DNA of 64,000 bases from an uncultured Alphaproteobacteria bacterium (GCA_902595755.1 CACJRF010000002.1:74677-138676), one strand, 5' to 3'. Counted from the first letter of the stretch, positions 27,412 to 42,792 are shown. Program-made: numbers and translations. Notes: generated from the sequence alone by a model not told the origin.

Positions 27412-27500
27412 ATTTCAGTAAAACACAAAAGTCATATAAGTTATTGATTCTATTGATAAATATTGTAATGAAACTACTGTGTATTTAAGCTGAGAGATTT

Positions 27501-27520: not shown

Positions 27521-27595
27521 TTTTTCTTAACACCTCATTAGATAAATATTTTATCTTTGCTTGAGTTTTATAATTTATATGAATTATAATTAAAT

Positions 27596-28318: not shown

Positions 28319-28476
28319 GAGTTCTTGCATCCCTAGCAGGCGTGAAATGGGGTAAGACAATTATGGCTGTTATTTTAGCTTTCTTTAAAAAAGCATGGTT
28401 TTTGATTTTTCTTCCCTTTATTTTTTTATGGAATAGGATAATTAAATTTTTTAAGGGCATTTTTGGAATTAAGTAA
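28282..28476 (+). other. Out-of-frame C-terminal membrane segment of the DUF2167 gene
   Basis: In the -1 frame relative to 27596-28318 the DNA reads KGDKVAAVGALGVLASLAG, then two hydrophobic helices (TIMAVILAFFKKAWFLIFLP and FIFLWNRIIKFFKGI), stop at 28474-28476. This matches the DKxAAYG-plus-helices tail expected for DUF2167. No stop occurs in this frame after 28255-28257, so the shift lies between about 28258 and 28316; an A-rich run at 28256-28269 is a likely place. Confidence 0.65.
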
Positions 28477-28894: not shown

Positions 28895-28958
28895 AATGAT
28901 GTCCAGATTCATATTTGTTGATACTCTTATAACTTTAAGTGTATAAAACTTAACTATC

Positions 28959-29083
28959 AAAAGATTACTGACATGGTTTTGATAAAAGTAATTGTGTTAT
29001 ACGGAAAATAAAAAAACAATCCATTGAGTTTTATGAAATCATCTCCTTTGACTTTTGAGGGTGGGGGGAGGAAAAAAATATGG
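28959..29083. repeat. Degenerate copy of the 3' end of the gene at 36992 and its downstream DNA
   Basis: About 125 nt that align with 37261-37385 at roughly four of five bases. They start in the codons for KITDIVLIKVIG and continue past the stop through ACAATCCATT and a CTTTTGAGG-plus-G-rich segment. The coding part here is broken, so it is a fossil duplicate 8.3 kb from its relative, in the same orientation. Confidence 0.75.
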
Positions 29084-29133
29084 TATAAATCTAACTAAGA
29101 TTTTAAATGGTAAGACAATATTTATAATAGGTT

Positions 29134-30225
29134 TTATTGTTTTTTGAATATTGAATTTATTCTATCATTCACAGAAATATAAATACTTTTAAAACTCTCT
29201 GGAAAGTTTAACTTAAGAACACTTGAACTCTCATCAACCTTTTTTTCAATTTCATTTAATATATCTTTATTAGAAAATAATGATAAAAAATTTGTAAATT
29301 TTTTTAATTGATTCTCACCAAATATTTCAATAAAAAACTTTTGATGTTCTTTGCTAAATTTTCCAATATTGACAATTTTCTTACCAAATAGCCATAATCG
29401 AAGATTTTCAGTCATATCATTTTTCATTTTTAAAATGGGGGCATCTATATATGTTTCAATATCTTTAATAATTTTATTGTTAAGATTATCAAGGTCATTA
29501 GTATTAATTTCACTAAAATTTTGATAATTGTTAAGCATAGAGAACCAAAGTAACGCTCTGCAACGAACTAACATTGGTGGGTGAGATGAATGTATACTTT
29601 CTGATTGTGTAGCTAAATTAATATCTTTTAATTGTGTTAAGAACTCAGAAATATTAATTTTCAAATGCTCACTATCAAGTCCACTGATACATTTAATCAT
29701 TGCACTTAGGCAGCTATTTAAGTTTTGACTAGCAATCAAACCAACCCTATCTACAGATATTTCCTTAGCTCTAGATAAAATTAAAGAATCAAAATTTATT
29801 TGTGACTGTTGATTAGAACTATTATGATGTCCAAGTATAAAATGTCCTAGCTCATGTCCAATAACAAAACAGAATTCATCCTTATCTAAAAGATTCACCA
29901 AGCTTGAAGAAAACTTAATGAAACACTTATTTGAACTAAACGCAACACATTGTGCCTGTATTTCCTGTGATGCATAGACGAAAAATCTTATATCAAATGT
30001 CGATTTAATTTTAAGATTTTTTAATACTTTAGAAGTACATTCAAATAACTTGGGTGTTGATAGTTTTGAAATTTGGAGAGAATTCTCCAATAAATAATTA
30101 TTTAACTTATTTTCTTCAAGCGTATCATTTATAAAATTGTTTGATTTTATATCATTTGGAAATCTAATTGCTTCAAAATTATCTATAATACTTTGAGCAT
30201 TATTCGGAATATTTTTTTCTGGCAT
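29134..30225 (-). CDS. M48-type zinc metallopeptidase
   Basis: 363 residues, no evident signal peptide. Zinc site HELGH in FCFVIGHELGHFILGHH (about 119-135), with the third ligand probably the Glu of AKEISVDRVGL (about 155), as in M48 family (HtpX/Oma1-like) peptidases. SIHSSHPPMLVRCRAL further on matches the M48 segment following the active site. Most M48 enzymes are membrane proteins that degrade misfolded membrane proteins; this one lacks clear membrane spans and probably works in the cytoplasm or at the membrane surface. Last gene of the operon with GrpE-like, Hsp70 and TerB genes; it overlaps the TerB gene by 26 nt. A quality-control protease fed by the chaperone is the natural inference. 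Confidence 0.8.
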   Translation of the reverse strand: MPEKNIPNNAQSIIDNFEAIRFPNDIKSNNFINDTLEENKLNNYLLENSLQISKLSTPKLFECTSKVLKNLKIKSTFDIRFFVYASQEIQAQCVAFSSNKCFIKFSSSLVNLLDKDEFCFVIGHELGHFILGHHNSSNQQSQINFDSLILSRAKEISVDRVGLIASQNLNSCLSAMIKCISGLDSEHLKINISEFLTQLKDINLATQSESIHSSHPPMLVRCRALLWFSMLNNYQNFSEINTNDLDNLNNKIIKDIETYIDAPILKMKNDMTENLRLWLFGKKIVNIGKFSKEHQKFFIEIFGENQLKKFTNFLSLFSNKDILNEIEKKVDESSSVLKLNFPESFKSIYISVNDRINSIFKKQ

Positions 30226-31471
30226 CAGATATACAGTTTAACATAAATTGTGCATTATCCCTTTCTTTACCTTCAGATAAATTTTGGTATCTTGAATTCC
30301 ATTTTTTGAATTCATTTTTCAAATGTTCATTTATTTTTTGTTTGCTCCAATTTGTTTTGATATTCAAAATACTTTCAATATCTAAATTTGAACTTGCCTT
30401 TGATGAATCTAATTTTAACAGGCTTTTATCTTTTATTTTATCAATCATTTTTTTATTAAGTTTTAAATCTTTTGCTATGCGATTAAGTATTTCTAACTCA
30501 GATTTTTCAGCAACCCCATCTGCTGACATAACATCATAGCAAAGTTCAATCGCATCATACTTAATTTTTTTCGTACCAATTTCATTCATCCTAGAAATTA
30601 TTTTAGACAAACTTAGTGTATTATTCGTAGCTTCATTAAAAGTTAATTTGAAAGCATCGTTAAACATTTTTTTTAATTTATCTTGAGTTCTTGGCTCATA
30701 AAAAGCAATATTATCCTTTATGAAGGTTTTAATTGTATTACCTTCCTTTTCATCCAGATTTCCATCTGCCATAGCCACTGCAACAGCCAATTTAATTCCT
30801 AATGTCGTTGATTCATCAGCATCATCAATTGCTTCAAGATAACCTTTTTCTTTAAAATTGATTTCGGTTTCAATGCTTTTAAGGAAATATATAGGAGGAT
30901 TTTCTCCAAAGAAACCATTAGTAAATTGAACAGGGTTATTAGCATTACCCATAAATAACATGATACGTAGTTTTCTTTTACCACTGTAAGGTGGAGAGAG
31001 CATTTCGGGAAAAAATCCAGCTAAAGGCACAAAATTCAGATACGTTTTACCAGGAGTAAGGGAAAAGGCTGCACTTTCAAAATGGTAAATAATTGAGTTA
31101 GGTTCTCTGAACATATTAAAAGCTGAAACTACGGGTTGCATAGGTTTTTGTGCATCCTTTTCGTGTTCAGTTATATCATAAATCTTTAACCCCCAATAAG
31201 CTTTTAGAGTTATATTAGGTAGATTGCCTTTCATCATTACTTCTGTAATCTCTAAACCATCTTTTGTTTTGTTTTGTAGTCTTAAAATTAATTTTCCAAA
31301 AAACTCATCTGAAGCAAATTCTTCCTCCATCGATTCCTTAAAAGACTTGCTTGATACTGCAGTTTTAGCAGCAGCTTTAACAGTTTTACCTGCGGCTCCA
31401 GCTGCTCCTACTATTACATTAATAATAACTCCACCGAAGAATAAAAAAGCTAATCCTAAAAGAATTTCCAT
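30200..31471 (-). CDS. TerB-domain protein with degenerate J-domain-like C-terminus
   Basis: 423 residues. An N-terminal hydrophobic stretch (about 2-28, Ala/Gly-rich) may be a membrane anchor. A large middle domain (about 55-205) is not recognised. Then a TerB-like all-helical domain with its two typical halves: GIKLAVAVAMADGNLDEKEG and AIELCYDVMSADGVAEKSE (acidic DG turns). The last 60 residues (SILNIKTNWSKQKINEHLKN, then EFKKWNSRYQN, ISDARKKY) follow the J-domain helix pattern but have WNSR in place of the HPD that activates Hsp70. Similar TerB+J arrangements occur in DjlA-type cochaperones. Directly after the Hsp70 gene with a good GTGGAG ribosome site, so it is probably the cochaperone or substrate adaptor of that Hsp70. 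Confidence 0.75.
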   Translation of the reverse strand: MEILLGLAFLFFGGVIINVIVGAAGAAGKTVKAAAKTAVSSKSFKESMEEEFASDEFFGKLILRLQNKTKDGLEITEVMMKGNLPNITLKAYWGLKIYDITEHEKDAQKPMQPVVSAFNMFREPNSIIYHFESAAFSLTPGKTYLNFVPLAGFFPEMLSPPYSGKRKLRIMLFMGNANNPVQFTNGFFGENPPIYFLKSIETEINFKEKGYLEAIDDADESTTLGIKLAVAVAMADGNLDEKEGNTIKTFIKDNIAFYEPRTQDKLKKMFNDAFKLTFNEATNNTLSLSKIISRMNEIGTKKIKYDAIELCYDVMSADGVAEKSELEILNRIAKDLKLNKKMIDKIKDKSLLKLDSSKASSNLDIESILNIKTNWSKQKINEHLKNEFKKWNSRYQNLSEGKERDNAQFMLNCISDARKKYSE

Positions 31472-31475
31472 AAGT

Positions 31476-32981
31476 TCACTCCACTAAAAATTTATCAATA
31501 TCTTCAACTGTATTTTTTTGTTCATGTAGGGAATCGAATGACAAATCTATTTCCTTTTTTACAGATGTTTCTTCATCTAAAAATTCACAATTCATTGTTT
31601 TGTTTTCTGTAAATGAAAAAGTTACTGAAATTTTTGTACCTGCTGGTCTTTTGCTATTAAATTCAAGCTCGCCCTCCCAAATTAATTTGACAAATTTTAT
31701 ATCTTTTTCTTCTTCTTTTGACTCTGTTACTCTGCAAATGATACTTTCCATATCATTCAACGGGGTGTAATAATCTTTAGTTATACTAACTGGAATTTTT
31801 TTACCCCTGGGAATTATAACATCGTTTACTAGTAGTATTTGACCAGTTTCTTCGTCATTAGTTTGCATATATGTTCCAAAATAGTTGTGAGTACATTCAT
31901 CAACTGACAATTTACTTACTGATTCTTTTTGAGTACTTGTTAATAAGCTACCATCATTCTTAAATGCTGCATATAAAGATGCTCCCAAAGCTACGACTTC
32001 ATCCACATTTACAGTTGAAATAGGTTCTTTTTTAAAAATTTTTTTAACTGAATTAACTATTGCTGGAATTCTTGTACTTCCACCAGCAAAAAAAACTGCT
32101 TTAATATCTTGTACTTTGATTTTGGCATTATCTAACACTGTCTCACATAGCATTTCCGTTTGAGCTATGAGAGAGGATATTGATTCTTCAAATTCTACCC
32201 GAGTAATTTCAATATTTGTTTTACCAACAGATACCCTTACTTTATCTCTTTTTGATAAAGACTTTTTATCATTTTCAGCATCATTTTCATTGTACTCATC
32301 ATCTTTTAATACTTGACTTGTTTTTTCTTTAAACTTTTTGGCAACCAGTTTTTTTAGCTCGGTATCAAAATCATATCCACCTAATTTAGAAACTCCTTCA
32401 GAGGCAACTATTTCTATATTTTGATTTTTAACCTTAATAACTGATACATCGAATGTACCTCCACCTAAATCATAAACCACATAGTGACCTGAGAGGGATT
32501 TTCCCTCTTTATATGCATAATATAATGCAGCAGCAGTTGGCTCATCAATAATATATTTTACATTCAGCCCAGCATTCTTTGCTGCAAGTAATGTTGCCTC
32601 ACGAGCATCATGCCCAAAATTTGCTGGGATAGTAACTGAAGCTTCAGCAATTTTACCAATTTCTTTCTCTGAATCTTGTTTGAGTTTTTTGAGTACAAAT
32701 GTACTTAAATCGGTAGGACTAAATTCATGGTTGTTAATTTTATATGTTTTAGTCGTACCCATGTCTCTTTTAAAACGAGCAGCAGCAGCTTTTTTACTCA
32801 CACCCCATTCTTTTCTTGCTGATTCACCAACAACAAATGTATTTTTTTCTATTTCATGAACGCAAGAAGGAGTAATATTCTGACCATCATCGTTATAAAC
32901 AACTACAGGTCTTCCAGCATCGTCTATATAACTTAATGCTGAAAAAGTTGTTCCAAGGTCAATACCTACAATCTTTGACAT
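31476..32981 (-). CDS. Hsp70 (DnaK-like) chaperone lacking the C-terminal lid
   Basis: 501 residues. Complete actin-like ATPase domain (about 1-375): phosphate loop GIDLGTTFSALSY, SVTIPANFGHDAREAT, IIDEPTAAALYYAY, VVYDLGGGTFDVSVI and adenosine-site AVFFAGGSTRIPAIV. A beta-type substrate domain follows (about 385-495), after which the protein ends. DnaK has about 640 residues, so the helical lid is missing and substrate would be held weakly or recognised differently. It lies between a membrane-anchored GrpE-like gene (upstream, 19 nt) and the TerB/J-like gene (downstream, 4 nt), a dedicated chaperone set distinct from housekeeping dnaKJ/grpE. GGGGGA precedes the ATG. Confidence 0.93.
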   Translation of the reverse strand: MSKIVGIDLGTTFSALSYIDDAGRPVVVYNDDGQNITPSCVHEIEKNTFVVGESARKEWGVSKKAAAARFKRDMGTTKTYKINNHEFSPTDLSTFVLKKLKQDSEKEIGKIAEASVTIPANFGHDAREATLLAAKNAGLNVKYIIDEPTAAALYYAYKEGKSLSGHYVVYDLGGGTFDVSVIKVKNQNIEIVASEGVSKLGGYDFDTELKKLVAKKFKEKTSQVLKDDEYNENDAENDKKSLSKRDKVRVSVGKTNIEITRVEFEESISSLIAQTEMLCETVLDNAKIKVQDIKAVFFAGGSTRIPAIVNSVKKIFKKEPISTVNVDEVVALGASLYAAFKNDGSLLTSTQKESVSKLSVDECTHNYFGTYMQTNDEETGQILLVNDVIIPRGKKIPVSITKDYYTPLNDMESIICRVTESKEEEKDIKFVKLIWEGELEFNSKRPAGTKISVTFSFTENKTMNCEFLDEETSVKKEIDLSFDSLHEQKNTVEDIDKFLVE

Positions 32982-33000
32982 TTAATTCCCCCAAATTAAG

Positions 33001-33888
33001 TTAGTTATATTTTAGTATTTTTACTTGCGAAGGTCTAATAATTTCTCCATCTTCACCTCTAAACTTATATCCACGTTTAACAATATCTATGATTTGAAAA
33101 TTTTTACTTTCATCAGTTGTCTTTTCAACAATTACTTTATCAGAGACTGCTGAGCCCATTTTTCTATAATCAGAACCTAGGGGTGGGGAAAAAGTTTCAA
33201 TATCGCAATCTTCGATAGCGTCTTGAAGTAATTCATCTATATTGACAATATCGTCTTTAGTTAATTTATTTTCCTTCTTAAGTTCTTCTGTAATAATTTT
33301 AACTCTTAAAAACCTTTCGATGAATTTTTTTATAATTTTTGAATCATATCCTTTTCGATATCTATCAATTAACTCATCCTTTTCATCCATATTTTTTTGC
33401 ATTACCATCGAAATTTCTTTTTGCTCTTGATTCGATTTTTGTAAGGTAATAATTACATCTTTAAGGCCTATCAGTGCTGACTTATAATCATCTAATGATT
33501 TCTTCCATTCTTCTGGGACTAAAGCGTTTGGTTTTCCCTCAATGAGTATTCTCTTCCATCTATAAACTAAATAAGTAATTATTACACAGACCAAACTCAG
33601 AATTAGACTAAAAAAAAGAATGATATGATGAGCAGTATGGTTAGATTCAGATGAAACGTTACCAACTAATTTTTTATCTACAATTTCTGATGATTCTTTT
33701 TTGCTCTCAGTTTTGACAATTGCTCGATAGTGAGGATAAAGATTATTATTATCTGTAAAATTATCTTTTATTTCGGTATTTGAAACTTCTTTGTTTTTTT
33801 CTTGTAAAGTGTCTATTAAGAAAAACAAACATACAGCTAACGCAAGTATTACTATAATATAAAGAATTATTTTAAAAATTTTTTTCAT
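33001..33888 (-). CDS. Membrane-anchored GrpE-like nucleotide exchange factor
   Basis: 295 residues. Two membrane helices (about 7-26 and 87-108) enclose a ~60-residue extracytoplasmic loop. The cytoplasmic remainder has a long helix (about 140-215) and then a beta-wing like GrpE: CDIETFSPPLGSDYRKMGSA, IIDIVKRGYKFRGEDG, EIIRPSQVKILK, corresponding to the family pattern of a Gly-Tyr strand followed by I-R-P/A-x-x-V. GrpE releases ADP from Hsp70; this one is tethered to the inner membrane, which would bring the adjacent lid-less Hsp70 there. First gene of the four-gene operon (GrpE-like, Hsp70, TerB/J-like, M48). The GrpE assignment rests on motif pattern only. Confidence 0.7.
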   Translation of the reverse strand: MKKIFKIILYIIVILALAVCLFFLIDTLQEKNKEVSNTEIKDNFTDNNNLYPHYRAIVKTESKKESSEIVDKKLVGNVSSESNHTAHHIILFFSLILSLVCVIITYLVYRWKRILIEGKPNALVPEEWKKSLDDYKSALIGLKDVIITLQKSNQEQKEISMVMQKNMDEKDELIDRYRKGYDSKIIKKFIERFLRVKIITEELKKENKLTKDDIVNIDELLQDAIEDCDIETFSPPLGSDYRKMGSAVSDKVIVEKTTDESKNFQIIDIVKRGYKFRGEDGEIIRPSQVKILKYN

Positions 33889-33974
33889 TTAGTTTTTTAA
33901 TTAAGAATACCTTTATCCTAAATTTAATTATTTAAATATCCTTTTTGTTTATAGTTAATTGTAGTTTGAAAATA

Positions 33975-34181
33975 TTAATTGTAAAACTTTTTTCGTTGCT
34001 CCTCTGCAAGCATGGCATATGCATAAACTTCTTTATCCCATTTTGCAGGAAAGAACTCATCATCATGAACATCCTCATAACAATCTAGCCAAGTTTCATA
34101 TTCTTCCTTGATGTCTTTAAACATTTCAACTGTTTCTTCATCGTCATCAATAAGGTCACAATAATCATCATAATCATCCAT
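33975..34181 (-). CDS. Small acidic hypothetical protein
   Basis: 68 residues from ATG at 34181 (GGAG 7 nt upstream). The first half is extremely acidic (MDDYDDYCDLIDDDEETVE), the second ends in KEVYAYAMLAEEQRKKFYN. No membrane segment. Highly acidic small proteins of mobile elements sometimes mimic DNA or inhibit host enzymes; there is no direct evidence for that here. A hairpin separates it from the gene upstream. Confidence 0.55.
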   Translation of the reverse strand: MDDYDDYCDLIDDDEETVEMFKDIKEEYETWLDCYEDVHDDEFFPAKWDKEVYAYAMLAEEQRKKFYN

Positions 34182-34199
34182 AAAAAATCTCCAGGTAAA

Positions 34200-34226
34200 A
34201 CACCCCCCCAAATATTTGAGGGGTGT
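34200..34226 (-). terminator. Hairpin between two small minus-strand genes
   Basis: ACACCCC (34200-34206) faces GGGGTGT (34220-34226) around the palindromic centre CAAATATTTG; on the minus strand it is followed by TTTTA. It lies between genes ending at 34240 and starting at 34181, so it may limit read-through. Confidence 0.5.
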
Positions 34227-34239
34227 GTAGGTTAATAAA

Positions 34240-34479
34240 TTATTTGTTTGGGAATAAACGTTGACTTTTAGCCCAGCCAACTGGATTGAGTCGTTTATAT
34301 TCACTCTCGTAATCATTTATGATACGTCTACGTGCTAACTCACTCGCATCCTTTCCCAGTTGATTCTCAACCTCTTGAACAATGTCAGACATTGCCCAAC
34401 CTTTTTGTTTGGACTGTTTACCTTTTTCTTTAAGGTCATTGATAATATTATCTACATAAAATGATAATGGCTTTATCAT
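34240..34479 (-). CDS. Small helical hypothetical protein
   Basis: 79 residues, charged, probably all-helical: MSDIVQEVENQLGKDASELARRRIINDY in the middle and a basic end (LNPVGWAKSQRLFPNK). AAGGAG lies upstream of ATG at 34479. No family recognised. Its long 5' region contains the hairpin cluster at 34532-34690, suggesting tight control of expression. Confidence 0.55.
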   Translation of the reverse strand: MIKPLSFYVDNIINDLKEKGKQSKQKGWAMSDIVQEVENQLGKDASELARRRIINDYESEYKRLNPVGWAKSQRLFPNK

Positions 34480-34531
34480 TAGCTACTCCTTTTGTTAAGT
34501 TGTTAAAAGTTGAGGAAGAAATTCCCCAGAG

Positions 34532-34576
34532 AGCCTTTATATATCTCTCTAAAGTATTTAGAGATATATAAAGGCT
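34532..34576. repeat. Perfect 17-bp inverted repeat upstream of 34240-34479
   Basis: AGCCTTTATATATCTCT (34532-34548) and its complement (34560-34576) around an 11-nt loop that can itself pair partly. GGAAGAAATTCC-like and GGAATTCTTTCC-like sequences flank it, extending a larger imperfect cruciform. It is not followed by a T run, so it is more likely a regulatory leader structure or DNA cruciform than a terminator. Confidence 0.7.
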
Positions 34577-34649
34577 TTAAGCTGAAGGAATTCTTTCCAG
34601 ACAAAAGGAACGTTTTTTTAATTTCGAGTTATTTAACTTAAAAGAAAAA

Positions 34650-34690
34650 AATAATTCCTTTTCGTTAACCTCAAAGGAATTATTTTTTTT
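34650..34690. terminator. 12-bp hairpin with T-rich flanks on both strands
   Basis: AATAATTCCTTT (34650-34661) pairs with AAAGGAATTATT (34673-34684), loop 11 nt, T run to 34690 on + and an A-rich stretch before it, so it can stop transcription in either direction. Confidence 0.65.
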
Positions 34691-34706
34691 TAAGTATAAT
34701 GTAGAC

Positions 34707-34732
34707 AAAAAAAAACCTGACAGAAGTCAGGT
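34707..34732 (-). terminator. Intrinsic terminator, minus strand
   Basis: GTCAGGT/ACCTGAC stem (34715-34721 with 34726-34732), 4-nt loop, followed on the minus strand by nine T (34715-34707). Backs up the terminator of the candidate small RNA. Confidence 0.7.
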
Positions 34733-34748
34733 CAAATATTGATTAGGC

Positions 34749-34808
34749 AAAAAAAAACCCAGCTTCAACTGGGTACATTTATCCTATATAGGAAAAAAAA
34801 TTTTGTAT
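34749..34808 (-). ncRNA. Candidate ~60-nt small RNA
   Basis: Minus-strand unit with a promoter-like TTGACA (34843-34838), 17-nt spacer and TAGATT (34820-34815), predicted start near 34808. It ends in hairpin ACCCAG/CTGGGT (34774-34757) followed by nine T. The transcript would also carry a CCTATATAGG palindrome. No open frame is present. The evidence is promoter plus terminator only. Confidence 0.4.
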
Positions 34809-34814
34809 TTTTCC

Positions 34815-34843
34815 AATCTATTAAATTACGATATGTTTGTCAA
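34815..34843 (-). promoter_or_regulatory. Promoter-like element for the candidate small RNA
   Basis: A perfect -35 hexamer TTGACA at 34843-34838 and a 4-of-6 -10 hexamer TAGATT at 34820-34815, spacing 17. Confidence 0.4.
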
Positions 34844-34885
34844 ATTGTTTTTTGCAAGTCATTGATTTTGGTGTTATCTTTTTTT

Positions 34886-35425
34886 ATGCTTAAAATAAAA
34901 CTTCCTGTTATTCTATTTATTTTAATATTTAATAATAGTTTAAATAGTCAAGAATTTAGCAACTTTTTTAAATTTGTTTCAAATTGTCTTAACAGCATTC
35001 ATAGTGTTGAAGAAATTAAAGAGGGTATAGAAATTTCAGGAGCAACGATTCTGAAAAAAAACACTGCACCTAAGCAACTTTTACCAATCATCAAAAACCT
35101 TGATATATTTGGTTATCAAGGATGGCAGTTTGTTAGTAAAGAAGAAAAAGATTTTATAATATTGTCACTAGGACAAAATAAAGAAAAAGGAAAAAATTTT
35201 ACTATCTGTACAGTAATGTCTGCAGTTGAGGATTATAAATCAAACTCAAGCTTATTAAAAAAAACCTACGATACTAAACTTGTGGATACTCTTAAAAAGG
35301 GTCCCCAGAAAGAAATGATGTATGAGGTAAGGTCTGGAACTGTTGATTATATGGTTGTTAATATCACTGAATTAACGGGGAAAAAAACGGGCTTACTTAA
35401 ATATGATGTTATAGGTGAATATTGA
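34886..35425 (+). CDS. Secreted hypothetical protein
   Basis: 179 residues from ATG at 34886, chosen because a signal peptide (about 1-20, ending NSLNS) begins there; upstream codons of the open frame run through terminator DNA. The mature part contains LKKNTAPKQLLPIIKNLDIFG, IILSLGQNKEKGKNFTICT and a C-terminal SGTVDYMVVNITEL strand. Two Cys (SNCLNS and TICTV). No family recognised. The next gene, a membrane protein, begins 1 nt after the stop. Confidence 0.6.
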   Translation: MLKIKLPVILFILIFNNSLNSQEFSNFFKFVSNCLNSIHSVEEIKEGIEISGATILKKNTAPKQLLPIIKNLDIFGYQGWQFVSKEEKDFIILSLGQNKEKGKNFTICTVMSAVEDYKSNSSLLKKTYDTKLVDTLKKGPQKEMMYEVRSGTVDYMVVNITELTGKKTGLLKYDVIGEY

Positions 35426-35426
35426 T

Positions 35427-35723
35427 ATGAATTTTAAAGAAAAAGATTATTTCTGGCTTGCACCTCTTATAGTAATGGGGATAGGTTTGTTACCTATGCC
35501 TTACGGGTACTACTTCCTTTCAAGGTTGGTAGTTTGCATTTGTGCTGTGTTTTTTCTTAGTCAATTATATAAGATAAACGAACGAACCTCAGTCTTCATT
35601 TTTGTAGGAATTGCAATATTATATAATCCTATATTTCCTATTCATTTGGGGGATAAGAGTATTTGGATAGTTGTAAATATTATTACTGCAATCCTTTTTT
35701 TAATTAACAAAAACAAAATTTAA
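35427..35723 (+). CDS. DUF6804-like four-helix membrane protein
   Basis: 98 residues from ATG at 35427 (AGGTGA 8 nt upstream). Four hydrophobic helices and the pattern LPMPYGYYFLSRLVVC ... NPIFPIHLGDKSIWIVVN, as in a widespread uncharacterised small membrane family (DUF6804 as I remember it). It follows the secreted protein gene by 1 nt, so they are co-expressed. Convergent with the gene at 35736. Confidence 0.65.
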   Translation: MNFKEKDYFWLAPLIVMGIGLLPMPYGYYFLSRLVVCICAVFFLSQLYKINERTSVFIFVGIAILYNPIFPIHLGDKSIWIVVNIITAILFLINKNKI

Positions 35724-35735
35724 CGTATCTAATAC

Positions 35736-36161
35736 TTAACTTACAATTTTTGCTTCATCTTTTAATGTCGTTATATATAAAGCTAGTGTAAGACCATCCC
35801 TTACAATATTTTGAACAAATTGATAAAAAGTACTCAAATCATTAGCATAGTCTGTTATGTCCATAATTATAGAGTAAACCATTATTATGACTGGAATTGC
35901 GCATACATTTACCATATCAAATGATTTATTCATTTTCATAACAGCTTTAGCTGCTATCCATCCACCAAAGGCACCACTTACGAAACCTACAGTTATGTAA
36001 GAAAATAATTGTGGCATATTAAATCCAGTAAAGAATGAGTTGAACCAGGCTAAAAACATTCCTACAAATCCCCCAAATAACTGACCGAGCATAAAAACGG
36101 GAATAAAAATTAAGGAAGCCAGAAAGCTAAAAAGTTTGACTTTAATCAACTTTTTTCTCAA
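35736..36161 (-). CDS. Membrane protein of unknown function
   Basis: 141 residues, four or more membrane helices; GQLFGGFVGMFLAWFN and SGAFGGWIAAKAVMK are Gly-rich helices, the latter followed by a basic loop. The likely start is TTG (36161 or 36149), inside the end of the upstream gene, so the two are translationally coupled. No family recognised. Confidence 0.5.
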   Translation of the reverse strand: MRKKLIKVKLFSFLASLIFIPVFMLGQLFGGFVGMFLAWFNSFFTGFNMPQLFSYITVGFVSGAFGGWIAAKAVMKMNKSFDMVNVCAIPVIIMVYSIIMDITDYANDLSTFYQFVQNIVRDGLTLALYITTLKDEAKIVS

Positions 36162-36414
36162 AGGCCATAGACATCATAAAAACAACATAAGCAGGAATTC
36201 CTCCACCGTAAGTAACAAGTAAGGGAATGTAGTTTCCATCAGAAATAAGTGCATACCAAGGGACTATGGCCCATGCTAACGGCCCAATAAAGATACTGGC
36301 TACAGCCCAGAATGTTCCAAAGTTTTGAGCGATGATTCCAAAACATAAGATGAATCCATAAATTCCAGCAAATAAAAACATTAGGAAAGCTAAAAATTTT
36401 AATGCAGTACCCAT
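36142..36414 (-). CDS. Small membrane protein, partner of the following gene
   Basis: 90 residues with three hydrophobic helices (about 5-25, 32-52, 63-82), including GPLAWAIVPWYALISDGNYIP. ATG at 36414. Its end overlaps the next membrane gene by 20 nt. Together they may form one complex; no function is known. Confidence 0.55.
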   Translation of the reverse strand: MGTALKFLAFLMFLFAGIYGFILCFGIIAQNFGTFWAVASIFIGPLAWAIVPWYALISDGNYIPLLVTYGGGIPAYVVFMMSMAFEKKVD

Positions 36415-36565
36415 CTTATAATTATAATTTATTTATAAATAATTTGTCTAGAATATTTTTTTTACCTAAATGATTTAGCTTTATAGTTAGTAAAAAAGTT
36501 AATATTTCTTTTATTACTTTCTATTTAAATTTTTAGATGATTTAAATTATGGTATAAGTAAGTCA

Positions 36566-36982
36566 GTGAAAAAGTTATTTATAATTATAAGCTTTATATT
36601 TATAAGTTCTCCTGTTTATTCTAACTGGACACTTCTTCAGGATAAGAATGGAAAAAAAACTTTTGTTGATTTAGAAAATATAAAAGAAGATGATAAATTT
36701 GTTTATTGGTATCAGTTAACTGATTTTACAAAACCCCAGTTTCTTGCTGGAGGAGTTTCCTATTTATCCAGTACCGTTTATGCAAAAGGAGATTGTGCAG
36801 GTTTAAGGACTCAGTTTCTAAAGAAAGATTTTTTTTCGAGAAATATGGCTAAAGACTTTGTTCTTTCTGTAAATGCAAAGTCAGCTGGAGGTGCTGGTGC
36901 TAAATTATTTGAAAAGTGGATTCACCCCCCTAAGAATACCTATGGTCGCTTAATATTAGATTCACTATGTAAGAAAAAATAG
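36566..36982 (+). CDS. Secreted protein resembling surface-adhesin-E-like domains
   Basis: 138 residues; GTG start at 36566, signal peptide (about 1-19, ending PVYS). The mature part opens NWTLLQDKNGKKTFVDLENI and continues FVYWYQLTDFTKPQF, the W...D..G...vD...I...V.fW pattern of the small adhesin-E-like exported domain. A Cys pair (GDCAGLR and DSLCKKK) could close the fold. Function in this host unknown. The next gene starts 9 nt later. Confidence 0.6.
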   Translation: MKKLFIIISFIFISSPVYSNWTLLQDKNGKKTFVDLENIKEDDKFVYWYQLTDFTKPQFLAGGVSYLSSTVYAKGDCAGLRTQFLKKDFFSRNMAKDFVLSVNAKSAGGAGAKLFEKWIHPPKNTYGRLILDSLCKKK

Positions 36983-36991
36983 AGAGTAGTA

Positions 36992-37312
36992 ATGAGTAGA
37001 TTATATTTCAAATTTTATCGAATTCTCCTTAATGAGAAATTCTACCCATTCAATATTTGGATATCCTTTTTAGTAGGCTTTTTTAGGAATTTTTTCTTTG
37101 CTCTTTTTATCAACACTTTTTTTCTCAATTATTATACGGATTCAGAATTCAATGAAGGTGTAATGTTTAGTTTTGCATTTACACTTATCCTTATGGTTTT
37201 CAGGATTTTTACAACCTTCAATCCCCTTCAGTTAATTGTATTCATCTACGACACAATCGAAAAGATTACTGATATAGTTTTAATTAAAGTAATTGGCTTA
37301 TTGAGAAAATAA
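36992..37312 (+). CDS. Membrane protein with duplicated 3' end elsewhere in the island
   Basis: 106 residues with two or three hydrophobic helices (about 22-45, 55-75) and a C-terminal amphipathic segment (FIYDTIEKITDIVLIKVIGLLRK). No family known. The last 50 bases and the next 75 non-coding bases have a degenerate copy at 28959-29083. Confidence 0.5.
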   Translation: MSRLYFKFYRILLNEKFYPFNIWISFLVGFFRNFFFALFINTFFLNYYTDSEFNEGVMFSFAFTLILMVFRIFTTFNPLQLIVFIYDTIEKITDIVLIKVIGLLRK

Positions 37313-37385
37313 AAATAAACAATCCATTAGATTTTTTAAAATCATCCCCTTTAACTTTTGAGGTTAGGGGGAGGAAAAAATATAG
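37261..37385. repeat. Repeat partner of 28959-29083
   Basis: Covers the codons for KITDIVLIKVIGLLRK, the stop, and a downstream block with AATCCATTAGATTTTTTAAA and CTTTTGAGGTTAGGGGGAGG. Same orientation as the copy 8.3 kb to the left. Conservation of the non-coding half suggests a terminator, regulatory or recombination role. Confidence 0.7.
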
Positions 37386-38036
37386 CTATAATTTTATAAA
37401 TATTAAATACTACTGAAATTTTGTGGGGGAGTTTAATCAAGAAGATACCAGCTATATAAATCAATATAGTTCTATATAGAACTTATATAGACTTGTATAA
37501 GTCATGATAAGTATATTAAAGTAACGTTATAGTTAACTATGTATATATTCTTTATTATCTTTTTCTTAACTTATATTGAGACTTATATACATCTATAATT
37601 ATCTAATTATTATTTTATTACTTAGTCTTAATGAATCTTTAATAGAACTATTATGTAACTATATATATACTATATATATTATATTGTTCCCCAAAATATA
37701 TCTTTAGATTATACCACGAAACTAATTGACAAAAAATAGACAAAATATCTTTTTTTTTTGTCTTTTAAATAGTTGTCTTTTTTATGTCATCAAACAAGAA
37801 TATGTTCTACTATTGTTCTACTAGAATGCCTCTAGAAAGCCCATAGAAGCTCGTAGGTGAAGATTTGTGTGTGTTCAAGTATCATTAGTCGATTGACGAA
37901 AAAGTGCACCAACTTTTAATCGTCTGAAATGCCTAGAATTCCTGAGTTTTTTTTAATTAATTAGTATTTTAAACTCAAAAACCTAACTTTTTTTTAAAAA
38001 TTGATTTAAAATAGTAACTAATTTAGTCTTTATTGT
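37386..38036. other. 650-nt gene-free, extremely AT-rich region
   Basis: No open frame of note on either strand. It holds a perfect 16-nt palindrome AGTTCTATATAGAACT (37468-37483), GACTT/AAGTC half-sites (37490-37503), long alternating TATA stretches (37655-37685), and clustered GACAAAA elements facing TTTTGTC (about 37728-37784). This is the kind of DNA seen at origins or operator regions of mobile elements; it precedes the five-leader gene cluster and probably contains its promoter. Confidence 0.5.
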
Positions 38037-38447
38037 ATGAAAAAACTATTACTAATACTGATTTGTTTATTTGTGTCTTTTGAAGTGAGGTCAAAAGAGG
38101 TTATTTTAAAATGTATTATGACTTACGAACAACTAATTGGACAGAAACCAATAAAAGTTGATAAGACTAAAAAGATTCCACCTGAAACTGAAATTCTTTA
38201 TTTTAATAAAAAGAAGAAATACATTACTCAAGAACCTAACGACCCATATATTGATTATAGTGAATACTATAATTGGAGAGAAAGTGATTCTGAGATTATT
38301 TTTGACAGAAAAAATGGTGTTAAAACAATTACTCTAAATTTGTATGATGGGAGTATAAAAATTGAAACTGTTAAAACTGTAGGTGGTGAATACAGGTTTA
38401 TTAAAACTGGAAAATGTGAAAAGATTAAAGGTGAAAAAATATTCTAG
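38037..38447 (+). CDS. Secreted protein with shared leader, copy 1
   Basis: 136 residues: signal peptide MKKLLLILICLFVSFEVRS, almost identical to that of four other genes here. The mature part (KEVILKCIMTYEQLIG, then polar beta-rich sequence, ending FIKTGKCEKIKGEKIF) has one Cys near each end. Unknown function. No ribosome site is evident upstream (TTTATTGT before ATG). The stop directly abuts the ATG of copy 2. Confidence 0.65.
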   Translation: MKKLLLILICLFVSFEVRSKEVILKCIMTYEQLIGQKPIKVDKTKKIPPETEILYFNKKKKYITQEPNDPYIDYSEYYNWRESDSEIIFDRKNGVKTITLNLYDGSIKIETVKTVGGEYRFIKTGKCEKIKGEKIF

Positions 38448-38867
38448 ATGAAAAAACTATTACTGATATTGATTTGTTTGTTTTTTTCTTATGAGGTGAA
38501 CTCAAAGACAGTTTTCACTTGTGGAAGTAGTGAAGGTTATGTTCATTTCTTTGACAAAAATAAATTTGAGAAAGATGGAATAAAAGATGGAATGTTTACA
38601 CTTCGTAAAAACTCTGATGGTTGGGACTTTGGTTTTGTTGACTATTATAAAGAATTTACAAGTGTAAAAGATAAAGATGGAGAAATATCTGTCATTGATA
38701 CAGGTGAACAAATTTTAGTCTCAGTAATTTATGGTACGGGTGTCTGGGAAAAATACCAATTAAGTAAAAAGAGTGGTTTAATGATGTGGACTTCTCATAG
38801 ATTCAATGGAACGATGTTTGATAATGTAAAGATTATGAAGTCCCAATGTAAATATTCAGGTGACTAA
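38448..38867 (+). CDS. Secreted protein with shared leader, copy 2
   Basis: 139 residues: signal peptide MKKLLLILICLFFSYEVNS, then TVFTCGSSEGYVHFFDKNKFE and a mature part with DGWDFGFVDYYKEFT, IGTGEQ-like turns and a final Cys (KSQCKYSGD). Mature sequence is unrelated by eye to copy 1 apart from Cys at both ends. The pattern (Cys near start, YVHFFD, W..GF.D) recalls small exported lipocalin-like folds, but that is weak. Its stop shares a base with the next ATG. Confidence 0.65.
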   Translation: MKKLLLILICLFFSYEVNSKTVFTCGSSEGYVHFFDKNKFEKDGIKDGMFTLRKNSDGWDFGFVDYYKEFTSVKDKDGEISVIDTGEQILVSVIYGTGVWEKYQLSKKSGLMMWTSHRFNGTMFDNVKIMKSQCKYSGD

Positions 38868-39151
38868 TGAAAAAACTATTACTGATATTGATTTGTTTAT
38901 TTGTTTATTCGTGTAAAGAGAGAAGTGAGAAATTAGAAAAAGTGGTGAGTGAGAATTTTAAAAACTCAGTGTGGTTAGAGAAGAAAAGTAGAGTCGGAGA
39001 ATTTGGTGTGTCAGTAGAACCAGATGAAGAATGGATAAAAACAATTTTGATTTATGGATATTTTGATAATCAAATAAATTGTGATTTAATTAAAAGTAAT
39101 TTTGAAGAAGAGTATCCTCAAGATGCATTTAGGTGTAATCCAGTAAAATGA
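38867..39151 (+). CDS. Small lipoprotein with shared leader, copy 3
   Basis: 94 residues. The leader DNA is the same as its neighbours, but the signal ends LICLFVYSCKERS: VYSC can serve as a lipobox, so this copy may be anchored as a lipoprotein. The mature part is charged (SEKLEKVVSENFKNSVWLEK) and ends with Cys residues (INCDLIKSN and FRCNPVK). Overlaps the preceding gene by 1 nt and the next by 4 nt (ATGA). Confidence 0.6.
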   Translation: MKKLLLILICLFVYSCKERSEKLEKVVSENFKNSVWLEKKSRVGEFGVSVEPDEEWIKTILIYGYFDNQINCDLIKSNFEEEYPQDAFRCNPVK

Positions 39152-39570
39152 AAAAACTATTACTGATATTGACTTGTTTGTTTGTCTCTTTTGAAGTGAA
39201 GTCAAAGGAAATAGTCTTTGAATGTCAGGACGTTACCGAACCAGACTCTTCATCAGTAAAAAATTATTTCCCTGAATTATTTGTTTTTAATCGTAAGACT
39301 GGTTGGTTAAATACAAATGGTTATAAGGAAACATTGATTAACTATAAAAATCAAGGGATTGAAATTTTGGATTTTGGTTATTTAGAAACTAATTTGAAAA
39401 CTAAATTTTCATACACTACTTTTTTTAAGTATAAAATGTCAGATAATATTATTACCGAATTATCAGAATTTAATATGTATACGGGTACCTTAAGTCGTCG
39501 TACTAAAGGGGGTGAAATTGATAGAGGATATATAAACTACTCCTGTAAAGAAATTGAAAAAAAGTTTTAA
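39148..39570 (+). CDS. Secreted protein with shared leader, copy 4
   Basis: 140 residues: signal MKKLLLILTCLFVSFEVKS, then KEIVFECQDVTEPDSSSV, VFNRKTGWLNTNGYKETL and an end YINYSCKEIEKKF. As in copies 1 and 2 the mature domain has a Cys close to each end. The opening KEIVFEC resembles copy 1 (KEVILKC), so these two may be true paralogues. ATGA overlap with copy 3; TAATG overlap with the next, leaderless gene. Confidence 0.65.
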   Translation: MKKLLLILTCLFVSFEVKSKEIVFECQDVTEPDSSSVKNYFPELFVFNRKTGWLNTNGYKETLINYKNQGIEILDFGYLETNLKTKFSYTTFFKYKMSDNIITELSEFNMYTGTLSRRTKGGEIDRGYINYSCKEIEKKF

Positions 39571-39848
39571 TGAAAAAAGTTATTTCGTTAGATACCAAGA
39601 AGTTTTTAAATAGGATTCATTCTGAAGATGGAAACCATCTTTTAAAAAAAGAGAATGATATTTATTTTTTCGGATACGATAACGGAAAAGATTTGAGAAT
39701 GTGGAAACTTCAACTACCTAAGAATTTTGATGAAAAGAAACTCTTTGTTTTCTTTCAACAACTTACTGGAAGTGATAGAGGTATTTGGGATTACTTTAAT
39801 TGGTTAAAAAAACAAAAGATTAAACTCACTGAACATACTTGGTGGTGA
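39570..39848 (+). CDS. Cytoplasmic hypothetical protein at the end of the leader-gene operon
   Basis: 92 residues, no signal peptide: MKKVISLDTKKFLNRIHSED, IYFFGYDNGKDLRMWKLQLP, IWDYFNWLKKQKIKLTEHTWW. Aromatic-rich and probably globular. It begins in the stop of copy 4, so it is part of the same transcript but stays in the cell; an immunity, chaperone or regulatory role for the secreted products would fit but is only a guess. Confidence 0.55.
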   Translation: MKKVISLDTKKFLNRIHSEDGNHLLKKENDIYFFGYDNGKDLRMWKLQLPKNFDEKKLFVFFQQLTGSDRGIWDYFNWLKKQKIKLTEHTWW

Positions 39849-39860
39849 TTTAAGGAAGAG

Positions 39861-40280
39861 TTACTCTTTCTTTCTTTTATAAAACCATATTCCTAAAAAA
39901 ATTAGAAATCCAAGTGTAATTACTTTATAAAACATGGGTATTGGTTGATTGAGATATTTAAGAAAGAAAACTTCAACCAGAACATATACACCCCCGAGAA
40001 AATAGAAAAGATTACATAATAGATTAGAATTCTTACCCCATCTGTTTTCACTCTCAATATCAAAATCCCCATAATAAAATCTCATTCCAATTCTTGTTGA
40101 AAGAAGTAAAGTTACAATGTTTCTATAAAACCCAATATCATTTTCTTCATTATCATAAAAATCACCATGTTCCAAAGGAATACCGAATTTATCAAAAACA
40201 TAGTCAAACAAACTATAAAAAATAATCCCAGATAAAAAACCTATAAAAAAGGAAAAGAAGATTTTAAGTTTTTTTTTCAT
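39861..40280 (-). CDS. Four-helix membrane protein
   Basis: 139 residues from ATG at 40280. Hydrophobic helices near 5-22, 55-70, 85-107 and 115-133, between them an acidic loop (EHGDFYDNEENDIGF). No family recognised. Convergent with the leader-gene operon (12 nt apart) and divergent from copy 5 of the leader family. Confidence 0.5.
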   Translation of the reverse strand: MKKKLKIFFSFFIGFLSGIIFYSLFDYVFDKFGIPLEHGDFYDNEENDIGFYRNIVTLLLSTRIGMRFYYGDFDIESENRWGKNSNLLCNLFYFLGGVYVLVEVFFLKYLNQPIPMFYKVITLGFLIFLGIWFYKRKKE

Positions 40281-40318
40281 ATAAATTTTTAACAATTAAA
40301 ATTTTAATTGATGGATGT

Positions 40319-40324
40319 TATAAT
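40319..40324 (+). promoter_or_regulatory. Consensus -10 box 8 nt before an ATG (possible leaderless mRNA)
   Basis: TATAAT at 40319-40324, with the ATG of the next gene at 40333. Transcription would start about 6-8 nt after the box, at or next to the ATG, leaving no ribosome site. The -35 region is weak. Confidence 0.4.
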
Positions 40325-40332
40325 TTCAAATA

Positions 40333-40587
40333 ATGAAAAAACTATTACTGATATTAATTTGTTTGTTTGTGTCTTTTGAAGTGAATTCAGAATCTAAAAA
40401 ATCAATTACTAAACTTATTGACTATGAAAAGTGTATGAAAGAATTAGAAGAGGATGACACTAAAATAGTAAATTCAACAATCAATAGAAAATCAGGTGAA
40501 CTTCACTTGTATTTTCATAATGATGACAAAATGTATAGGTTACATTTGACAGGTAATGAAGGTACTTGTTTAGTTTATGAAAAATAA
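40333..40587 (+). CDS. Secreted protein with shared leader, copy 5
   Basis: 84 residues: signal MKKLLLILICLFVSFEVNS, followed by a short mature part (ESKKSITKLIDYEKCMKELE ... GNEGTCLVYEK) with one Cys near each end. It is separated from copies 1-4 by the genes at 39570 and 39861 but has nearly the same first 60 bases. A TATAAT box immediately upstream suggests it is transcribed alone, perhaps without a leader. Confidence 0.6.
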   Translation: MKKLLLILICLFVSFEVNSESKKSITKLIDYEKCMKELEEDDTKIVNSTINRKSGELHLYFHNDDKMYRLHLTGNEGTCLVYEK

Positions 40588-40698
40588 TCTAGGAAATCCT
40601 CTGAATTTTGGTTCAGAGGATTAATAAGGACTAGGAAATCAACTTTACATAAATTATTTTTGTGTAAGTTTTATGGCAAATATTAATGAGAGTGAGTA

Positions 40699-40971
40699 AT
40701 GAAGATAGATGATGGTACAGGTATCGAAGTTGATTTAAACGAATTTGAATTAAAGAAAGTAAGAGATAATTGGGAGAAAGTTAAAGAGAAAATACCATTA
40801 GATAATGATGTTGATGAAGTTAAATGTAGAAGAAGTTTCTTTCACATTATTGGGTACGATTCAATGTTCTTGAATGGTGGAGATAATATTGAGGAAAGAG
40901 TAAAGAAATTCGTAGATAATGAAGAATGGAAAAATAGAAAAGAGTTTTGGAAGTTGGAAGTTGACGAATAA
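40699..40971 (+). CDS. Small cytoplasmic acidic protein
   Basis: 90 residues, strongly charged, no signal peptide: GTGIEVDLNEFELKKVRDNW, CRRSFFHIIGYDSMFLNGGD, VDNEEWKNRKEFWKLEVDE. Possibly a small two-domain helical protein. GAGAGTGAG precedes the ATG. No family recognised. Confidence 0.5.
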   Translation: MKIDDGTGIEVDLNEFELKKVRDNWEKVKEKIPLDNDVDEVKCRRSFFHIIGYDSMFLNGGDNIEERVKKFVDNEEWKNRKEFWKLEVDE

Positions 40972-40976
40972 AAATT

Positions 40977-41225
40977 CTAAACTGAATTATCGTCTTTAGG
41001 TGATGATGGCAATTCTTTTTCCCATTGAAACTCTTCAATCTGTTTTTCCATTTCTTGAAATATATTTTGAACTTCATTAAACCCATCACTAATAAACCCT
41101 ACAAACTGAAAGATAGGTATTAAAAACATAACAATACCATAAATAATAAATACACCAATTAGAGTGAATATGAGTTTAAACATATTTCGTTCAAACCATT
41201 TAAACATTTTTAGAAAATCTTTCAT
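40977..41225 (-). CDS. Small single-span membrane protein
   Basis: 82 residues: amphipathic start, one long membrane helix (about 15-40, LIFTLIGVFIIYGIVMFLIP) and a Gln/Glu-rich soluble helix (EVQNIFQEMEKQIEEFQWEKE). ATG at 41225, 19 nt after the end of the integrase gene on the same strand, so it could be expressed with the integrase. Confidence 0.45.
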   Translation of the reverse strand: MKDFLKMFKWFERNMFKLIFTLIGVFIIYGIVMFLIPIFQFVGFISDGFNEVQNIFQEMEKQIEEFQWEKELPSSPKDDNSV

Positions 41226-41244
41226 AAAATGAAACAGTTAATTA

Positions 41245-42600
41245 TTATTTACCATCAAAAAAATTAACATCCCAAATTCGTAACATCTCTTCATGTATTT
41301 CTTCATACACTTTAATAGATTTAGAGACAATATTATGAATATACCTTTGCGTAATAGAGCTTATTCCATGATGGAGCAATCGTTTAATTACATCTTCAGG
41401 ATGACCAATACTAGCTCCTACAGATGCAAATAAATGACGTAGTTCATGAAGAGAGAAGGGGTGTCCAATGTGTCGTGCTACTCGTTCAATATTCTTTCGT
41501 GGACTATTCATTGGTTTACTATCATCACCCTTAAGAGCATCCCTTCCATTATTAGAGGGAAATACCCATTGTGATATTTGTCCTGAATATTTGTACTGAT
41601 TATTCAGAATAGTCTTTAAGTACTTTGTTAATGGAATAATTGAGCGATATTTTTTGGATTGGTCTTGGTCTCCTTTAAGACCATACACAAGCATATGAGC
41701 TGGTTTAAAGTCCTCAGGATTATCATTAAGATTGATGTGTTCCCATTTTAGCGAACAGGCTTCATGCAATCGAAGTCCAGTAAATAATATTAGATGAATA
41801 AGATTAAAGATGTATTCTCTATTTTTGAAGACACCATTATATTCAGGGTGGTCACTAATTCGTGCTTCATCAAAGAGTTTTCTAATGAGTGCAGGGCTTA
41901 TTTCAATAGCTTTGCGAACTGGTAAAGATTTCTTTATTTTCTTACGTAAATTCAATAGTTTATTTAATGGATTTAAAGTTAATAAGTAGGTATCATTTTC
42001 GTCTATTAGTACACCAGTTGCATAGTTAAATATAGTATTGAGATACCCAAATAGATTAAGTGCTGTTGCAATCTTACCTTCCTTATAGATAGTATTTATT
42101 TTTTGTTCCAGCTCACGTGATGTGATAGTTGCAATAGATTTTTTAAGCAATCCATTACAGTTTTTTTGCAAACAATTTGTCATATCCTTTCTAGTTACAG
42201 GCTGTATATGTGTATTCTCACTTAAGTACATCTTAAAGGTATCCTCAAGGCTCATTTTTCTTTGTTTTGCAAGGGTTTTAGCTTCCAGTTCCTCTTGTTT
42301 TTTTCGCTCAAATACAGTCTTTGGATTAATACCATCAAGACATAGCTTTCTATATTCTTGATATTTAAAACGTATTTCATTGATATCATGTTCAGGATAG
42401 CTTCCTAATTTAAAACTAGTCGGTTTAGTTTCTCCTTTAATTTTCATTTGAGTGATAAAAGACAGGTGAGGGGAAGGTGTTTTACGTTTACGAACTTCGA
42501 GGTTTTTTATTTCTGAATCAAATAAAGAATCATTATATTCAGCAATATTGAGAAACCGTTTCAGACTTTCTTTGGAAAATTTAGCTCTTCTACGACCCAT
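41245..42600 (-). CDS. Tyrosine recombinase (integrase) of the tRNA-Thr island
   Basis: 451 residues. N-terminal arm-binding region (about 1-100), core-binding domain (about 110-220) and catalytic domain (about 240-440). The active site is complete: Arg of TGLRLHEACSL (about 275), HELRH (His and Arg, about 383-387), His of LLHHGIS (about 408-413) and the nucleophile Tyr of TQRYIHN (about 420). It catalyses integration and excision between attP and the tRNA-Thr attB. The gene starts 114 nt from the right att copy and reads away from it, the usual layout for tRNA-linked islands. The repeats CTGTGTTAC lie right upstream of its ATG, so it probably represses its own promoter when bound. Confidence 0.95.
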   Translation of the reverse strand: MGRRRAKFSKESLKRFLNIAEYNDSLFDSEIKNLEVRKRKTPSPHLSFITQMKIKGETKPTSFKLGSYPEHDINEIRFKYQEYRKLCLDGINPKTVFERKKQEELEAKTLAKQRKMSLEDTFKMYLSENTHIQPVTRKDMTNCLQKNCNGLLKKSIATITSRELEQKINTIYKEGKIATALNLFGYLNTIFNYATGVLIDENDTYLLTLNPLNKLLNLRKKIKKSLPVRKAIEISPALIRKLFDEARISDHPEYNGVFKNREYIFNLIHLILFTGLRLHEACSLKWEHINLNDNPEDFKPAHMLVYGLKGDQDQSKKYRSIIPLTKYLKTILNNQYKYSGQISQWVFPSNNGRDALKGDDSKPMNSPRKNIERVARHIGHPFSLHELRHLFASVGASIGHPEDVIKRLLHHGISSITQRYIHNIVSKSIKVYEEIHEEMLRIWDVNFFDGK

Positions 42601-42602
42601 TT

Positions 42603-42662
42603 CTGTGTTACCTCTGTGTTACTTTTTGGGTAAAAAGACGCTCTGTGTTACCCTTGTGTTAC
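42603..42662. promoter_or_regulatory. Two pairs of CTGTGTTAC repeats, right integrase arm sites / int promoter
   Basis: CTGTGTTAC at 42603-42611, 42614-42622 and 42643-42651, and TTGTGTTAC at 42654-42662; within each pair the spacing is 11 bp. They lie between the integrase ATG (42600) and the right att (42714) and match the pair near the left end in sequence, orientation and spacing. Confidence 0.65.
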
Positions 42663-42713
42663 CAAGTGAGTATAACACTAAATTAGTCTAAAAGTCAATC
42701 TGGAAGTGGTTTA

Positions 42714-42766
42714 GAGTGGTGCCGCTTGAGAGATTTGAACTCCCGACCCACTGATTACAAATCAGT
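42714..42766. other. Right attachment site inside tRNA-Thr
   Basis: 53 bp identical to 27359-27411, spanning the 3' CCA end through part of the anticodon arm of the intact tRNA-Thr gene. Confidence 0.9.
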
Positions 42767-42792
42767 TGCTCTACCAACTGAGCTAAAGCGGC
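42717..42792 (-). tRNA. tRNA-Thr (anticodon TGT)
   Basis: On the minus strand GCCGCTT (42792-42786) pairs with AAGCGGC (42727-42721), followed by A and CCA. The anticodon stem ACTGA/TCAGT encloses TTTGTAA, anticodon TGT. Its 3' half is the att core of the adjacent island, which restores the gene after integration. Confidence 0.97.

Follow-up and report, generated by a model that had tools for sequence, protein, structure and literature searches.

A shared signal-peptide leader as a probable crossover boundary for the exchange of genomic island cassettes in a family of Alphaproteobacteria

The window analyzed here is a 64,000-nucleotide (nt) stretch of DNA from an uncultured Alphaproteobacteria bacterium (GCA_902595755.1 CACJRF010000002.1:74677-138676), and it contains, between positions 38037 and 40587, five genes that begin with one and the same leader, a signal-peptide coding sequence of about 55 nt that includes the start codon, and that continue into unrelated bodies. 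We propose, with a probability of roughly 0.8, that this leader is a shared crossover boundary for the exchange of island cassettes, probably by homologous recombination, a cassette being the stretch from one leader to the next. A crossover between two leaders, most likely of an ordinary homologous or homeologous (presumably RecA-type) kind, would join any upstream context to any body; it would thus replace bodies at a fixed locus and also carry leader-to-leader units between genomes and genera. Because start codon and signal peptide both lie within the leader, the product of most junctions would be an intact protein or lipoprotein that is exported, and the benefit to the cell would be a quickly changing set of envelope proteins.

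One leader in front of unrelated genes

The leader DNA, ATGAAAAAACTATTACTGATATTGATTTGTTTGTTTGTGTCTTTTGAAGTGAAGTCA, opens the genes at 38037, 38448, 38867, 39148 and 40333 for 43–60 nt; the left edge of the identity is exactly the ATG, and the DNA 5′ of the ATG is unrelated among the five genes. The first 24 nt match five times in the window (with zero to two mismatches) and nowhere else in it, where shuffled sequences lead us to expect 0.01 matches. The mature parts form five separate body families (phmmer, E<1e-3), so that an earlier reading of the sequence by itself (the original prediction), which had described near-identical leaders before almost completely different mature parts, is borne out on both counts, as is its remark that most of the products have a Cys near each end, which is the case for genes 1, 2, and 4. 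It had also described genes 1 to 4 and the leaderless gene at 39570 as overlapping end to start; this is correct for genes 2 and 3 (1 nt), 3 and 4 (4 nt), and 4 and 39570 (1 nt), but genes 1 and 2 only abut (38447/38448). The features of the array are as follows, with lengths in amino acids (aa) and agreement given relative to a 56-nt leader consensus.

38037-38092, plus strand: leader copy 1, 56 nt, signal-peptide coding, 52/56; found with nhmmer and with the leader sequence model R1
38037-38447, plus strand: leader gene 1, 136 aa; body with weak distant relatives only
38448-38503, plus strand: leader copy 2, 51/56
38448-38867, plus strand: leader gene 2, 139 aa, orphan body
38867-38909, plus strand: leader copy 3, 42/56; the first ~43 nt, past which the gene diverges at the start of its own lipobox-like VYSC
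38867-39147, plus strand: leader gene 3, 94 aa, which is also a 281-bp leader-to-leader unit that recurs in another genus
39148-39203, plus strand: leader copy 4, 54/56
39148-39570, plus strand: leader gene 4, 140 aa, orphan body
39570-39848, plus strand: leaderless gene, 92 aa
40333-40388, plus strand: leader copy 5, 54/56
40333-40587, plus strand: leader gene 5, 84 aa; body family F1, also present in two genera, g8 and g9, and elsewhere in the same genome

Two further leader copies lie on another contig of this genome (the start of C1, beside glmS); one bears the 84-aa body of the gene at 40333, and the other is bodyless and runs directly into the 3′ end of glmS.

Gene pairs with the leader and unrelated bodies share a mean of 44.7 of their first 56 nt, whereas unrelated signal-peptide genes without the leader share a mean of 23.6 and never more than 37, a maximum for which leader copies with mis-set starts and partial leaders were set aside. 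A generic likeness among MKK-type starts is rejected by this control as the cause of the match. It is also highly improbable that selection for a good signal peptide or translation start has by itself kept the leaders alike without recombination. As this would predict, the leader is plausible as a Sec signal peptide and every copy begins at the ATG, but codon identity between genera is 0.68 where codon usage predicts 0.47, the same mix of CTA, TTA, CTG, and TTG leucine codons is found between genera, and the non-leader signal peptides of the same loci share nothing comparable. Nor would selection explain the well-kept bodyless leader DNA or the one-sided sharing of upstream or body DNA described below; the flank sharing and the leader-to-leader units refute it as the sole cause, although it may add to the upkeep of the leader.

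The original prediction had suggested following the leader DNA into other genomes and listing the attached bodies. When up to three mismatches over 30 nt are allowed, 14 of the 32 family genomes contain the leader, whereas all 65 genomes taken from the class's other families lack it; with model R1, strong matches are obtained in most family genera, and among 385 class genomes no match outside the family exceeds 25 bits. Across the 32 family genomes, the same leader DNA opens 41 genes whose bodies fall into 18 unrelated families (phmmer), and there are bodyless leaders besides. The leader is thus found in other genera and with many bodies, rather than only here in front of old duplicates of one another. 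If the genes had arisen by tandem duplication, with the bodies diverging rapidly thereafter, this would account for arrays that are tandem and on one strand, and the two-Cys beta pattern common to some bodies would be compatible with very remote homology; however, there are 18 body families, with copies 90–99% identical lying beside non-homologous neighbors, body families occur with other signal peptides, and bodies are replaced at the same locus, all of which makes this origin extremely doubtful.

Reassortment of both flanks at the leader

We have compared the 41 leader regions pairwise, from −600 to +900, and 75 pairs of loci have long shared DNA in leader register; in 41 of these it is upstream only, in 27 on the body side only, and in seven on both sides. 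The upstream-only matches stop within the leader (at +17 to about +60), and the body-only matches start at the ATG or a few nucleotides from it. Leaders make up 1.25% of the DNA and contain 121 of the 456 ends of shared blocks (27%); a block end is present in 29 of 36 leaders versus 28 of 89 nearby starts of other genes (p=9e-7), and in a mean of 5.4 of 36 random windows.

Individual loci illustrate both directions of exchange. At the mrp/tmRNA site, loci L056 (g8) and L058 (g10) are 94% identical over a stretch of 591 nt that reaches into the leader, past which they have unrelated bodies (227 versus 173 aa) before the similarity of the flanks resumes. Conversely, gene 5 of the window is 89.8–92.9% identical to genes with the same body while its upstream 300 nt are at background, and the F1 family to which that body belongs sits behind differing upstream DNA in g8, in g9, and elsewhere in its own genome. 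The proposal that recombination through the leader swaps bodies, as made in the original prediction, is therefore upheld, with differing bodies behind near-identical upstream DNA at one locus and the converse. Of the two processes that it named, gene conversion or recombination, the second stands; conversion alone is too narrow, in that leader-to-leader units have moved between contexts.

Several points weigh against reading the leader as a crossover boundary. The block ends at 28 of 89 other island gene starts indicate that the islands recombine elsewhere too; the counts of 41, 27, and seven are of pairs, not of independent events; the loci were chosen for containing a leader, which the random-window and gene-start controls offset in part; and the sample is one genome per species. 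For genes 1, 2, and 4 of the window, the body lacks clear relatives in other family genomes, and because these three of the five bodies are orphans, their reassortment is read solely from the shared leader. Recombination itself is read from comparison, and the type of crossover is deduced in turn.

A repeated leader might also have led assembly or amplification to join unrelated DNA. The isolate names look like those of single-cell genomes, and several leaders are found close to the end of a contig or on a short one; against this, leader pairs within a genome share exact words of no more than 41 nt, several genomes in which the pattern is seen have just one clear leader within the compared regions, and separate genomes have the same junctions. 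We consider such an artefact most improbable.

Units that extend from leader to leader

If leaders are crossover boundaries, whole cassettes would move between them, and three kinds of unit are consistent with this. The QSRPNL unit, of exactly 381 bp from one leader ATG to the next, is present in L045 (g9), L050, and L055 (g8); it is 99.2–99.7% identical in these three genomes of two genera, and both of its flanks are at background identity. The 281-bp unit of window gene 3 is 92.5% identical to L048:6682-6962, again with both flanks at background. The third is a pair of genes with HIT (PF01230) and HNH (PF13395) domains; four genomes, from three genera, have it at 90–97% identity and with flanks at background, and in two of the four it has a leader on either side, at a leader spacing of 1380 and 1379 bp.

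HIT and HNH module: L050:1632-2926; L052:7013-8307; L057:6860-8154; L142:2006-3300

A stop at the beginning of the HIT gene cuts off the leader ahead of this pair, and the pair is without a signal peptide of its own; it appears to be a mobile two-gene module. Because it lies between leaders without being exported, the leader marks a cassette border even where it exports nothing. The HNH gene has a weak resemblance to the HNH domain of Cas9, and a scan of leader neighbors for defense systems revealed HNH-type nuclease genes beside leader cassettes and, apart from these, nothing tied to the leader.

The age of these movements can be gauged from glmS, whose DNA is 65–72% identical between genera and whose third-codon positions are 45–51% identical and hence saturated; leaders and bodies that are 95–100% identical between genera have therefore been transferred recently.

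Probable recombination at the leader

The positions of the crossovers vary. Leader variants A9 and C17 track the upstream context (L048/L053) while T15 tracks the body (family F1), and leaders that are truncated or lack a body stop at about 18, 26, 30, 37, and 53 nt; since the crossover points differ in both respects, we favor homologous over site-specific recombination. The signal peptide at L048:6124 resembles a patch of conversion: it matches at 20 of 33 positions inside, whereas the flanks outside otherwise match, at 49/58 and 99/117. A group statistic on the linkage of leader thirds with the upstream DNA or the body was uninformative.

We think it unlikely that the leader instead holds a coding, integron-like site for a site-specific recombinase, either the island integrase or c1. 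The latter is a recombinase-like helix-turn-helix protein of ~110 aa that resembles part of PF07508 (the helix-turn-helix part of serine recombinases, E=3.7e-6) and, at most glmS-site loci, separates glmS from the leader array (L047:5862-6188, L062:115-453, and others). Its similarity and position, the left edge at exactly the ATG in every leader copy, and the existence of discrete leader-to-leader units all speak for such a site. However, crossovers vary in position inside the leader and truncated leaders end at many positions; the single strand of the leader folds no better than shuffles (z=0.49 and 0.38), with no foldback structure; no catalytic domain is seen in c1, which is absent near the window array; and several loci have no recombinase nearby. 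A broader version, with the leader as the dedicated site of an integron-like exchange that supplies a start codon and export signal under one of these specific recombinases, and with modules of the HIT-HNH type as passengers, seems rather unlikely as well.

Distribution and genomic setting

The window array is cargo of a genomic island inserted at a tRNA-Thr gene. The 3′ end of the tRNA is duplicated at the far end of the island, and an integrase adjoins the tRNA-Thr:

27359-42713: tRNA-Thr genomic island, 15.4 kb, with direct repeats, integrase, and tRNA
27359-27411: direct repeat, distal side, 53 bp, copy of the 3′ part of the tRNA
41245-42600, minus strand: tyrosine integrase of the island (PF00589, E=3.7e-16; phrog_1, E=1.4e-40)
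42714-42766: direct repeat, tRNA side, 53 bp, exact match of 27359-27411
42717-42792, minus strand: tRNA-Thr (tgt), the insertion site of the island (ARAGORN)

A further 18 nt of the tRNA end are present at 26267, which suggests that an older island lies alongside. Within the island, at 29134-32981, an Hsp70-like gene, a gene of 423 aa, and an M48-like peptidase gene adjoin one another; elsewhere in the window, 12235-13134 encodes a 299-aa acidic, low-complexity protein rich in Pro, Asp, and Met beside type I secretion-like genes.

Other leader genes mostly occupy comparable places: the 3′ side of glmS in about ten genomes; a tRNA-Ser/lepA site with a different integrase in L048 and L053; a tmRNA site in L056 and L140, with a matching site in L058; and a position near tRNA-Met in L060. 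We also note that in L056, L058, L060, and L062, from three genera, a conserved hydrophobic mini open reading frame of ~19 codons (MLFRFIIIGTVICIIILMM-like) lies directly 5′ of the leader, and that L140, L141, and L142, from three genera, have a common element 5′ of the leader with short direct repeats AAAAGTGTCTG and TGCACGACTTCTGCAC, after which the bodies differ.

Phages were considered as vectors of the leader cassettes and rejected: exact and degenerate leader patterns have no matches in IMG/VR, phage records lack the leader, and a search with three of the bodies found no viral relatives. The leader is absent from plasmids also. Exact leader matches in the named collection are to uncultured alphaproteobacterial isolates with AG- names, a naming style of ocean single-cell projects; genomes of the family are small, at about 0.9–2 Mb, and the family is probably oceanic.

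The encoded proteins

Export of the bodies is predicted from the leader, and the products are likeliest to be small periplasmic or membrane-attached proteins. No body has a Pfam or PHROG match above chance. Several body families occur also with unrelated signal peptides: L057:6222 and L047:8006 are alike from the lipobox onward and have different signal peptides, as do the members of the GKYKG-repeat family in L140/L142 versus L143; the LxGKxLxC family has non-leader members in L047, L045, and the window (20355 and 23208); and the L050:1236 body matches that of the window gene at 20824, which has a different signal peptide. These relatives in the window, at 20355-23678, lie outside the island.

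For the LxGKxLxC family, AlphaFold2 predicts with confidence a small eight-stranded beta protein (predicted local distance difference test, pLDDT, 84.8) that has no significant match in the PDB; the most plausible near match is YedD (4hwm, 9fz5; E 0.07–0.1, template modeling score about 0.47), with lipocalins further down. The prediction for gene 1, of lower confidence (pLDDT 74), is also largely beta and yields no usable structure match, and a beta-barrel fold common to the bodies is only a suspicion. Several g8 genomes have retained, by vertical descent, an LxGKxLxC gene whose signal peptide is leader-like (44–46 of 56 nt), and this gene may be the origin of the leader.

The original prediction had likened the array to those of exported effectors or antigenic proteins, and a conserved export leader with diverse bodies does resemble such arrays. 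We regard antigenic variation by switching, or injection of effectors into a host, as very unlikely and do not retain this part of the prediction. No confident match to a known effector or antigen family, no host link, no tied secretion machinery, and no expression-site layout were seen; the leader genes of the window are all intact, each with its own start, in contrast to a silent-copy layout; the genomes are small and the isolate names marine in style; and one cassette bears the HIT and HNH genes, which lack a signal peptide of their own.

Relationship to known systems

The leader is a clear example, at the level of sequence, of gene exchange with a signal peptide for its joint, by which an unrelated body would be acquired and exported at once, and it may represent a general route to orphan exported proteins in low-GC streamlined genomes. 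Sites with different bodies, and bodies at different sites, form a natural experiment for gauging exchange in metagenomes.

Integron arrays are similar in having small cassettes bounded by a repeated sequence and traded as units (of 381, 281, and ~1380 bp here), but here the 5′ coding end holds the repeat, which has no attC-like foldback and appears to be crossed at variable positions. No IntI-type platform was recognized with general profiles, no IntI-specific model having been run, and the window integrase is of the ordinary phage or island type. In aquatic prokaryotes, replacement flexible genomic islands occur at fixed sites, and homologous recombination has been proposed for them (PMC4033161); island content at fixed sites is likewise replaced here, but whole islands are replaced via their boundaries in those systems, whereas here an internal coding leader is present at every cassette.

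The nearest kinds are the signal peptides of phytoplasma SVM proteins and the terminal reassortment of type III effectors. Phytoplasma SVM signal-peptide proteins are secreted, evolve rapidly, and lie in mobile mosaic DNA (PMC8026896, PMC3984173, PMC5379588), and the likeness is that of one conserved Sec signal peptide before rapidly evolving secreted proteins. The sequences are unrelated, with no match to PF12113 in the five leader proteins in a Pfam scan up to E=1, and phytoplasmas infect plants as pathogens and have effectors. Unlike phytoplasma SVM, the present system has documented cassettes running from leader to leader, exchange across genera, and one cassette that is not exported. In terminal reassortment (Stavrinides et al. 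2006, as cited in PMC6460904), as far as that citing account describes it, a 5′ end with an export signal is recombined onto unrelated bodies, and a common 5′ end with a predicted export signal on unrelated bodies is what we find. The account concerns a type III signal and chimaeras in pathogens, whereas we see a Sec signal peptide and tandem leader-bounded cassettes. The leader system works like terminal reassortment organized as cassettes, and it extends the idea behind SVM proteins and effector reassortment to apparently free-living bacteria.
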